This document shows, piece by piece, positions 21,917 through 52,004 of a stretch of DNA of 64,000 nt (position 1 is the first letter of the stretch; each line of letters begins with the position of its first letter). Source of the DNA: Shewanella oncorhynchi (GTDB lineage: Bacteria > Pseudomonadota > Gammaproteobacteria > Enterobacterales > Shewanellaceae); contig NZ_JABAEB010000005.1 of NCBI RefSeq assembly GCF_012584455.1, positions 248,001-312,000 of the forward strand, written 5' to 3'. The position numbers and the translations under genes were made by a program. The notes below the pieces were generated by a model that saw nothing but the letters and a program-made list of their open reading frames with translations, made no database searches and had not been told where the DNA came from.

Positions 21917-24169
<2,253 letters not shown>

Positions 24170-46638: not shown

Positions 46639-47076
46639 ATGAGTATTTGGTTTAGAGCTGTAACGTTAGAGGATTGCGCGCGTTTAGACGCCGGTATGGG
46701 TGGCAAAGGCACCTTGATGCAGACTTTAGGAATTGAGATCAGTGAGATTGGCGACGATTACATGAAGGCCACTATGCCAGCCAGTCCGGCGGTGCATAAC
46801 CCTTTGGGCATAGTGCATGGTGGCGCGAATGTCGCGCTTGCTGAAACCGTTGCTAGCTATGCGGCAAATTTCGCGGTGGATTTTGAGCAGTACTATTGTG
46901 TCGGTCAAGAAATTAACGCTAACCACTTACGGGCTTCCCGTAATGGGGTATTAACCGCCACGGCTAAGCCTATCCACTTAGGGAAGCGCAGCTCTGTATG
47001 GGAGATTTTAATCCACAACAGTGCGGGTGAACTGACTTGTATTTCACGGATGACGGCGGCTGTCGTTAAACGCTAA
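46639..47076 (+). CDS. Hotdog thioesterase, MenI/YdiI-like
   Basis: 145 residues. Closely resembles E. coli MenI (YdiI): MSIWFRAVTLEDC at the start, IGDDYMKATMP, PLGIVHGGANVALAETVAS, GQEINANHLRASRNG, LHLGKRSSVWEI-type stretch and SRMTAAV at the end. MenI hydrolyses 1,4-dihydroxy-2-naphthoyl-CoA in menaquinone synthesis, important for Shewanella respiration. The exact substrate is inferred from similarity; other acyl-CoA substrates are possible. Not adjacent to other men genes. Confidence 0.85.
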   Translation: MSIWFRAVTLEDCARLDAGMGGKGTLMQTLGIEISEIGDDYMKATMPASPAVHNPLGIVHGGANVALAETVASYAANFAVDFEQYYCVGQEINANHLRASRNGVLTATAKPIHLGKRSSVWEILIHNSAGELTCISRMTAAVVKR

Positions 47077-47401: not shown

Positions 47402-47660
47402 TGGTGTATCAGCTTAACTCCGCTTTCTCGCACCGCACTTCGCTCCATTGTCCTGAGCAGCTATTTGGTTTTTCAACAGCATCTTAAGTGATGTGAGCGG
47501 ACCATTGGCTGTGAGTCCGTGTAATTCATTAACTGTCTTGCCAAACCCATTCTTAATCTTTTTTTTAGATTATGAAAATCTAGTTTAATCGTTTTATTCT
47601 AAAGTGGTAATTCTCTATTCTTGCTCCATCGACAACACGTCGCAGCCAAGGAGATAAACC

Positions 47661-47714
47661 ATGGCCACCATTTACGATTTAATTGAAACCTGGTTAACCA
47701 GCAATCAAGACTAA
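47661..47714 (+). CDS. 17-codon ORF immediately upstream of katB
   Basis: ATG with AAGGAG seven bases upstream opens MATIYDLIETWLTSNQD and stops TAA at 47712. The TAA overlaps the AAGGAG ribosome-binding site of katB (47713-47718), and katB begins 10 bp further on, so the two are likely translationally coupled. Too short for a standard gene finder. The peptide is hydrophobic and acidic with no similarity I can name. It could be a leader peptide controlling katB or a small protein. Confidence 0.6.
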   Translation: MATIYDLIETWLTSNQD

Positions 47715-47724
47715 GGAGCAGGGC

Positions 47725-49315: not shown

Positions 49316-50482
49316 TTAGGCCGCGATGAGCGCTGCATTAGGGCTATTTAGCTGCTTTAACAATCCAAATGCTTGCTGCATTTTATCCTCGGTTACGATA
49401 AATCCTATAAATGTTTCATCCACGTCGAATGCTTTAATACAGCTTCCTTGAGCATCAATATCGACTTGCCAGCGATAGACGCCATTCACTGTTATACCGC
49501 TGAGCTGCATAGGTAACAGTGGCGTTTTCACTTTAATGAGCATGGCGGGAAAATTCACTGCTGTCGGTTGGTTCAGTAATGTGTTCGCCAGCGCATTGGC
49601 GCTCAGTAACGCAGGTTGCAAATAGGCCCTATTTTGGCCGTTGATTTGGGCGCAATCACCTAGCGCATAAATATGGGCATCGTTGGTTTGTAAGCATTCG
49701 TTAACGACGATACCTTTATTGACCTCTAGCCCCGCATGCTGGGCAAGTTGACTGTTAGGGATCAGTCCGGCTGCACAGATAACCGCATCACAAATAAACC
49801 GTTGGTCATTATCTAGGCACACAGAGATACTGCCATCTTGGTGTTGCAGTTGGCTGACTCGGGTTTGCAATTGCACTGTGACGTTATGCTGCTTTAGTAC
49901 AGCGGTCAGTTTGTGGTTTAACATTTCGGGTAGCATATTCGGCATTAAGCTCGCTTGTGGATCGACCAAAAACACTTGCTTACCTGCAGTTGCTAAGTCC
50001 ATTGCCAGTTCAACTCCGACCAAACCAGCACCGATAACCAGTACTCTCCTCGCGCCATGGATGTCTGCTTCGCAGGCCTGATATTCTATTAAGCTGTTAA
50101 CTGTGTGGATGATATCGACGCCATCTCCCTCTATAGGTGGAATAAAGGGCCGTGCACCCGTGGCAAGCACTAATTTTTTGTACGCAATTTCGCGTCCTTG
50201 ATGGCAACATACTACCTGACGAACTTTATCTATTTTTATGACTTCACAGTGATTTATCACATCAATTTGTTGCTCATGTGCAAATTCAGTCGCGGTCAAT
50301 TTTATGAGATCTGACGCCATTTTTTTAAGGCTAAACACATGGCTTAAATCTGGTTTATGGTATTCGTCACCAGAGTCGGCTGTGATAACTGTAATCGGTT
50401 GTTCGCGGTTTAAACGTCGCAGTGTTTTGACTAGCTGATATGCCGCGAATCCACTGCCGATAATGACGATTGGCTTAGGCAT
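49316..50482 (-). CDS. norW: Flavorubredoxin reductase NorW
   Basis: 388 residues. FAD motif [30 protein letters not shown] motif [14 protein letters not shown] and the second FAD block [10 protein letters not shown]. NorW passes electrons from NADH to the rubredoxin domain of NorV so that nitric oxide is reduced to nitrous oxide. Its start overlaps the 3' end of norV by 8 bp, which fixes the operon and confirms the role among the many similar rubredoxin reductases. Confidence 0.94.
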
Positions 50483-52004
50483 TAGTCACCTCATTTTTTA
50501 TGACAGCGAAAACGCTTTTACCTAGGCCACATTCGGGACAGAGGAAGTCTTCGGCCACTTGAGTCCAAGGTGTGCCAGCAATGATATCTTGATTAGGTTC
50601 TCCTTTTTCAGGGTCGTAAACCCATTGGCAAACGGTGCAAATCATTGATTGTGTATCATTTAATTCGCACGCTTTTGTTGCAATCGGTGCAGTCATAGGG
50701 ACGTTATTAGTAGCAGTATTTTCAGCTGTTTGACTGGCCGTGGTGGCTTGGCTAGGTTTTGACATGACTTGATTAATGATAGAGCGACTATTAGCGCTAT
50801 CGAGGGGACGCAATGCCCATTCTCGCGCGATTCGCTGGCCGTGCTGACGGCATTCTTGCATCGCATCACGATCGGGACGCCATTTGACTTTTAATCCCAC
50901 TGAAGTTTCGAAACCAGCATCCATCAAACGAGTGTGAATTCTATCGACTGCGCCGCCATTCCAGCCATAACTACCAAAAGCTGCCGCCTTTTTATTGCGA
51001 AAACGCAGGCCCGTGATTTCTTCAAGCATGGCGGCAATTTTAGGCATCATTACATTATTCATGGTGGATGAGCCGACTAAAATACCTTTTGACCTAAATG
51101 CCTGTGCAAGGATTTCGTTTTTATCATGACGTGCGACGTTATACACTTTTACTGCTACATTGGGGTCAACATCATGAATACCTTGAGCAATACCGTCGGC
51201 CATCATGCGAGTATTATTGGACATAGAGTCGTAGAGAATCGTGATGCGGTCTTCTTGATAAGCGTCGGCCCAAGCTAAATATTGGTGAATAATTTGGGCA
51301 GGATTATCACGCCACACAATGCCGTGTGAAGTTGCGATCATATCTACAGGTAAATTAAAGCTTAATACTTCGTGAATTTTAGCCGTCACTAGGCTGCTAA
51401 AGGGCGTTAAAATGTTTGAGTAGTACCGTAGGCATTGTTCCATTAATTCATTTTGATCAACCTCATCATTGAATAAATGTTCGTCGCAATAGTGTTGGCC
51501 AAAGGCATCGTTACTGAATAAAACCGCATCTTCGGTGAGGTATGTCATCATGCTATCTGGCCAATGCAACATAGGTGCTTCGATAAATATCAGTTGCTTA
51601 CCATTGCCTATCGCTAAACTATCCCCTGTCTTTACGGTAATGAAATTCCATTCTGGGTGGTGGTGATGTCCTACAATGGAGTCGACCGCATTTTCACTGC
51701 AGTAAATTGGTGTGTTAGGAATTTTGGCCATTAATGCAGTCAGGGCGCCTGAGTGGTCTTCCTCTGCATGGTTCATCACAATATAGTCTATGTCGGTTAA
51801 ATTAATTTCAGCTTCAAGATTTTGTAAGAATTGCTGGCTAAACCGATGATCAACTGTATCAATTAACACGGTTTTTTCTTCACGGATAAGGTAGCTATTG
51901 TAGCTTGTGCCTTTAGTTATCTTGTACTCAGTACCATGAAAATCTTGCACTTCCCAATCGCGTTGGCCCACCCAGTGGATATTGTTTTTTACATGAATAG
52001 TCAT
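50475..52004 (-). CDS. norV: Anaerobic nitric oxide reductase flavorubredoxin NorV
   Basis: 509 residues. Metallo-beta-lactamase domain with di-iron ligands H79-x-E81-x-D83-H84 (NHAEEDH), flavodoxin domain (about 255-400: [18 protein letters not shown]), a Ser/Thr/Ala-rich linker and a C-terminal rubredoxin ([21 protein letters not shown]). E. coli NorV is 479 residues; the extra length is in the linker (about 410-450). Di-iron reduces nitric oxide to nitrous oxide under anaerobiosis. Sigma-54 promoter and NorR sites lie upstream. Confidence 0.96.

Follow-up and report, generated by a model that had tools for sequence, protein, structure and literature searches.

In the window, the whole stretch of 64,000 nucleotides of Shewanella oncorhynchi DNA that was analyzed, the catalase gene katB is directly preceded by a micro-ORF with a ribosome-binding site of its own (Table 1). 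The micro-ORF starts with an ATG at 47661-47663; its codons 1 to 12 form a conserved core and codons 13 to 17 a variable tail. The original prediction held that the micro-ORF has its own AAGGAG at ideal spacing and that its TAA forms part of the katB AAGGAG, and both statements hold in the window. For MR-1, the expression primer given in PMC6664582 matches the katB start that we used. An alternative katB start or an N-terminal extension of the catalase was ruled out: the peptide has a stop codon of its own in every case, and its frame differs from that of katB in most loci. On the left, the locus is anchored by a syntenic gene, which from its sequence we take to be hotdog-type thioesterase-like. 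On the right, a flavorubredoxin-like gene and a reductase-like partner, presumably NorV/NorW-like, converge on katB from the minus strand (window positions 49316-52004).

Table 1. Features of the katB locus, in window coordinates
Feature	Position	Strand	Basis or remark
Hotdog-type thioesterase-like gene (presumed), syntenic left anchor	46639..47076	+	tblastn; shows in-situ catalase replacement and loss
AGATT-N5-AATCT inverted repeat, then TTTAATCG; candidate LysR/OxyR-type operator	47567..47591	+	inference
TATTCT, candidate -10 element	47616..47621	+	inferred from sequence
Ribosome-binding site of micro-ORF, AAGGAG	47648..47653	+	7 nt 5' of its ATG
Micro-ORF MATIYDLIETWLTSNQD, 17 sense codons and TAA (47712-47714)	47661..47714	+	sequence, conservation, codon test
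Ribosome-binding site of katB, AAGGAG	47713..47718	+	two bases (AA) in common with the micro-ORF TAA
katB, monofunctional heme catalase, 491 aa	47725..49200	+	Pfam PF00199, E 1.4e-183; PF06628, E 1.4e-22

If TATTCT serves as the -10 element, the transcript would start ∼30 to 35 nt before the micro-ORF, and this element and the candidate operator, both upstream, would place the micro-ORF on the katB transcript. The -10 candidate was not picked up by a consensus promoter scan of the window, and a scan of the window found no terminator-like site between the micro-ORF and katB. Among 102 katB loci with the micro-ORF, a CTATTCT-like heptamer or TATTCT lies upstream in 51, in ∼25 of these 45 to 49 nt before the micro-ORF, and a pattern scan found T[TC]TAATC[GA] no more than 170 nt upstream in 85. 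In Shewanella oneidensis, katB is reported to be both repressed and activated by OxyR (PMC8787470), and OxyR control of katB is also reported in the abstract of PMC6416212.

To define how far the micro-ORF is conserved, we searched 129 Shewanella genomes, 119 of which were matched by KatB searches, and read the upstream DNA of 108 katB-orthologue loci in 107 genomes. A micro-ORF with the same core precedes katB at 102 of these 108 loci; 100 were found by pattern and two (L021 and L126) by eye, the pattern being one that can miss odd members and that also missed locus L206. The typical core is M-A-T-[ILV]-x-D-[LVI]-I-E-x-W-[LIV]. The 102 ORFs reduce to 70 distinct 36-nt cores and these to 42 distinct 12-residue cores. 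In the 70, there is no variation at T3, D6, or E9, a single exception each at I8 and W11, and three at the start codon; third codon positions vary widely. The start codons of the 102 ORFs are ATG (97), GTG (4), and TTG (1). Lengths are 13 and 15 to 23 amino acids; the sequence after residue 12 is free, and W11 stays at position 11. A GGAG/AGG/GGA-like stretch, judged by eye, is found in the 14 nt before the micro-ORF start in most of 100 loci. Frameshifts or loss of the ATG in close relatives, named beforehand as evidence against the peptide, were not encountered in most loci; the ORF is absent from 6 of the 108, which fall into two small clades of the katB tree (L150 and L156; L157, L158, L162, and L175). 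The four genomes of the second clade (G115, G114, G118, and G120) were also without a match to PF00141, the KatG-type family, in a 22-genome sample.

A whole-genome profile search gave a strong match (E of 2.8e-4 or better) in 112 of the 129 genomes, one per genome except in G021, where katB is present in two copies and two matches were found. The window's micro-ORF is the only match in its own genome (E 6e-9). The strong matches are followed by a gap up to E 0.015, the value for G109, which on reading is a member (MPDLYDIIEAWLNNGRE); the peptide is therefore present in 113 of 129 genomes in total.

The codons of the core bear the signature of a selected protein. Over 51 phylogenetically independent pairs (those of 54 with the peptide on both sides, drawn from a tree of the first 300 nt of the catalase genes), pN/pS, uncorrected for saturation, was 0.22 in the true frame, compared with 0.85 and 2.39 when the same bases were read in the two shifted frames. 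The pairs differ by 96 synonymous and 82 nonsynonymous changes (binomial P 1e-22). This contrast between the true and the shifted frames places the constraint on the peptide and not on the RNA. The excess of synonymous changes that the original prediction had proposed as the sign of amino acid conservation is thus found, as is in-frame, codon-level purifying selection, the mark of a conserved protein-coding small ORF, and its suggestion that a small protein or leader peptide has been overlooked here for its size is supported. Conservation and the codon test together rule out a chance ORF and confirm the micro-ORF.

The distance between the micro-ORF and katB is less constant than the core. From the micro-ORF stop codon to the katB ATG, it ranges from -11 to +111 nt over 101 katB loci; the katB start was assigned with a simple ribosome-site score, which gave no ATG candidate at 1 of the 102. 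The gap is 3 to 12 nt in 72 of the 101, and 81 have a gap of ≤20 nt or an overlap. In 20 loci the gap is 25 to 111 nt (>35 nt in 18); these loci also have the core motif. The coupling of stop codon and ribosome-binding site that drew attention to the window is true of it, but by pattern only 65 of 102 loci have the stop fused to an AGGAG/AGGAA-like site. An RNA element was ruled out: the leader has no Rfam match up to E 1, the consensus fold of 28 aligned close-spacing leaders is -1.1 kcal/mol with none of 8 pairs compensatory, and third codon positions are variable. When eight leaders were folded singly (z of -1.99 to 1.30), seven came out above -0.4, with no unusual folding, and L022 at -1.99. 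Thus, neither the fixed coupling geometry of a regulatory leader nor its alternative RNA structures or terminator were found.

The peptide is tightly linked to catalase. Among the 129 genomes, 102 have KatB and the peptide (counting G025, in which katB is frameshifted), 6 have KatB without the peptide, 8 have a different catalase with the peptide (G110, G088, G041, G062, G125, G095, G055, and G109), 3 have the peptide without a working catalase at the locus (G071, G051, and G020), and 10 have neither there (G007, G022, G024, G033, G075, G076, G091, G104, G111, and G122). In two of the last, G007 and G075, a catalase is encoded elsewhere in the genome; the locus was not found in G111, whose assembly is half complete, or in the very fragmented G091. 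Of the 116 genomes that have a catalase at the locus, 110 therefore have the peptide, compared with 3 of the 13 that have none there (Fisher P 8e-9), and leaving out the two poor assemblies gives 3 of 11 lacking catalase (P 3e-7). No relic of the peptide was detected by pattern at the eight thioesterase loci of genomes lacking both, one of which has only 296 nt downstream. The co-occurrence says that the function of the peptide belongs to the same physiology as catalase. In G025 (L209), katB lies in two frameshifted pieces by tblastn, a pseudogene or a sequencing error, next to an intact micro-ORF.

A KatG-type enzyme as obligate partner, suggested by the 22-genome sample, was ruled out by all 129 genomes: PF00141 occurs in 83 of them, and several genomes with the peptide, G001, G004, and G009 among them, have no match to it. 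The window itself has KatG-type catalase-peroxidase halves (PF00141) at 22232-24085, ∼24 kb upstream of katB.

Exchange of the catalase left the peptide in place. At eight loci (L199-L206), the place of katB, to the right of the same thioesterase-like gene as in the window, is held by a nonorthologous catalase 51 to 55% identical to KatB (50 to 52% in a tblastn comparison), and the peptide is retained in all eight, with gaps to the catalase of 88 to 156 nt in the seven measured. In a tree of ∼200 amino acids from the catalase start, the replacing catalases form one clade apart from KatB (support 0.99), so a single exchange probably took place. Before catalases of the wider group of this type at other sites in the genus (L211-L217), the pattern found no such ORF.

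The peptide has also outlasted katB. Most of the length of the gene is lost in G071 (L207) and about half in G051 (L210), both remnants having stop codons and frameshifts; the left neighbors and the micro-ORF beside them are intact. Compared with the relative L030, the twelve core codons have only synonymous changes, three in G071 and two in G051. At first and second codon positions, 62 of 274 are changed between L030 and the G051 remnant, compared with 24 of 288 for an intact gene that is more distant. The chance of an untouched core under neutrality is 0.034 for G051 and, with only 59 positions compared, 0.31 for G071, jointly ∼0.01 if the two are independent; retention beside the two pseudogenes is thus only moderately improbable under neutrality, which is suggestive, not conclusive. 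In G020 (L208), the thioesterase-like gene is followed by MASVYDLIEDWVQRQAIV and then by an unrelated, reversed gene. A family search found no PF00199 catalase in G071 or G020 and, in G051, the katB remnant and one distant family member elsewhere.

A similar peptide precedes catalase genes in Ferrimonas-type genomes, a second genus of the family whose loci repeat the upstream DNA of the Ferrimonas records L042-L044. By reading upstream DNA rather than by profile, we found that 10 of 12 such katB loci are preceded by a peptide, typically MWxGLY[DE]WI[EA], from which L237 and L244 deviate; L241 and L245 are without the ORF. It has a purine-rich ribosome site and runs up to or into katB, and its pN/pS is 0.41 versus 3.2 and 1.26 in the shifted frames, over all pairs of the 10, which are not independent. 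The peptides of the two genera have in common a pattern of hydrophobic-aromatic-acidic-hydrophobic-I-[EA]. A profile-profile comparison of the two shows weak similarity (probability 6%, E 0.006), so their putative homology rests mainly on position and pattern. Outside Shewanella, there was no profile match below E 0.013 in a set of 295 genomes of the order (genus members included) and none below E 0.2 in 23 other genomes of the family. No ATG-started ORF of 9 to 45 amino acids with a Shine-Dalgarno site and a fitting motif was found before 89 other catalases, taken from the better-matching loci. Two members of the peptide family (22 and 23 amino acids) gave no Pfam match up to E 1, and the best match of the profile to PDB sequences (E 0.91) is chance-like. 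Among the matches listed, the titles and abstract openings of open-access papers describe no catalase leader peptide and no such Shewanella microprotein, in agreement with the original prediction, which knew of no described leader for KatB. No Shewanella ribosome profiling or small-protein census was among the matches listed for the open-access literature.

Several features of the core suggest a helix. Over 38 distinct cores, the hydrophobic moment of residues 3 to 12 is 0.55, compared with 0.26 after shuffling. All 70 cores have T at position 3; outside these, G020 (L208) has S and G109 (L206) has D there; S and D are common helix N-caps, and by the capping rule T3 and D6 make a classical N-terminal capping box. 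An AlphaFold model in which the peptide is read through in frame into KatB is of poor confidence (mean pLDDT 66; first ten residues, 58); it has a helix from residue 4 and no sign of docking.

We propose that the micro-ORF encodes a real microprotein of 13 to 23 residues, which would be translated from the first cistron of a catalase transcript under OxyR control. Residues 3 to 12 would form a short amphipathic α-helix, capped by position 3 (T, rarely S or D), with D6 completing the capping box; I/L/V4, L7, I8, W11, and L12 would make up its hydrophobic face, and E9 would be an invariant polar contact. The helix may act in trans on a partner, either a protein or the membrane, that matters when catalase is induced, and the close spacing to katB in most species would give cotranslation, a secondary role. 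More than a mere switch for the neighboring gene, the peptide is probably a genuine protein of very small size, and we lean toward an amphipathic-helix microprotein that is made with catalase and acts in trans. Action in trans is favored because the tail is free, the gap is variable, the helix signature is present, and the peptide persists after catalase exchange and decay; the tie to catalase physiology follows from the co-occurrence. Against action in trans, a cis-acting leader also predicts the co-occurrence, one deletion can remove both genes, and two clades (6 of 108 loci) have katB but no peptide.

The chief alternative, which we consider less likely, is that nascent residues 1 to 12 stall or slow the ribosome under some condition, such as oxidative stress or heme shortage, and thereby set catalase translation. 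A leader of the ErmCL kind is conceivable because constraint ends at residue 12, in ORFs that all have at least 13 codons, and because 81 of 101 loci are closely spaced; the ribosome site of its own directly before the gene, the strong co-occurrence with catalase at the locus, and retention of the peptide when the catalase was exchanged also fit. Yet neither the 28 aligned leaders nor the eight folded singly have a conserved RNA structure for a stalled ribosome to switch, and the gaps of 25 to 111 nt at 20 of 101 katB loci and of 88 to 156 nt at the seven exchanged ones speak against it. The amphipathic periodicity and the N-cap-like exceptions suggest that the core is a folded helix and not a tunnel signal, and the ORF is intact beside a dead or absent katB in three genomes. 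The original claim that translation of the micro-ORF controls the next gene thus keeps the support of the co-occurrence but, given these gaps, the lack of conserved RNA, and the persistence of the peptide after exchange or decay of katB, it is neither the only nor the best reading.

It is improbable that the peptide is a catalase-specific partner, binding the enzyme itself for assembly, heme loading, or stability. Such a role would suit a peptide that adjoins and co-occurs with catalase at the locus and is found with two different catalase clades, but G071 and G020 have the peptide and no PF00199 protein was found there, 6 katB loci manage without it, no such ORF was detected by pattern before nonorthologous catalases elsewhere in the genus (L211-L217), and the read-through fusion model is uninformative. 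Least probable is a mini-cistron that merely delivers ribosomes to katB, whatever its sequence. The geometry of the window and of most loci is what this coupling would produce, but it alone does not explain the selection on amino acids (pN/pS of 0.22 versus 0.85 and 2.39), and the close geometry is absent at 20 of 101 loci; as the sole explanation, it is already contradicted.

Known systems resemble the preferred microprotein, or its alternatives, in part. Like ErmCL-type leaders, the micro-ORF is a very short ORF with its own ribosome site just before a gene, constrained in its early residues and free in its tail; unlike with those leaders, no conserved RNA hairpins were found, the spacing ranges from overlap to 156 nt, three genomes have the micro-ORF without the gene, and the periodicity is helix-like. 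A conserved tryptophan (W11 here, W12 in TnaC) recalls the TnaC-type arrest peptides, but their fixed distance from tryptophan to stop is not found here because the ORFs vary from 13 to 23 amino acids while W11 stays at position 11. Small accessory proteins whose genes share an operon with their enzyme, such as CydX, are likewise tiny, have a single helix (predicted for the micro-ORF product), and are encoded beside a heme enzyme; the micro-ORF product differs in having 13 to 23 amino acids and in being amphipathic and not hydrophobic throughout, and three genomes have it without the enzyme. A gene linked to that of a catalase is also the mark of catalase accessory proteins such as KapA of Helicobacter and the ankyrin proteins beside KatA, but these are full-sized, and we know of no sequence relation between them and the micro-ORF product.

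KatB is the major catalase of the model organism S. oneidensis, and reporter studies have addressed how OxyR controls it. One of these describes inserts of ∼400 bp upstream of the gene of interest (PMC6416212); such inserts would be expected to include the micro-ORF, and constructs of this kind would then mask any effect that it has. A conserved protein of 13 residues would be near the lower size limit of genes. Were the peptide to act in cis, it would be a catalase leader peptide, of which we found no earlier report in the titles and abstract openings of the open-access literature searched; were it to act in trans, it would be an unrecognized part of the peroxide response. We suggest, tentatively and with some doubt, that a free amphipathic helix of 13 to 23 amino acids, among the smallest conserved bacterial proteins, is produced throughout Shewanella from the transcript of the catalase gene, that Ferrimonas has a diverged counterpart, and that the target of the helix in the peroxide response is independent of catalase, which would be why it is kept when the catalase is exchanged or, in some lineages, lost.
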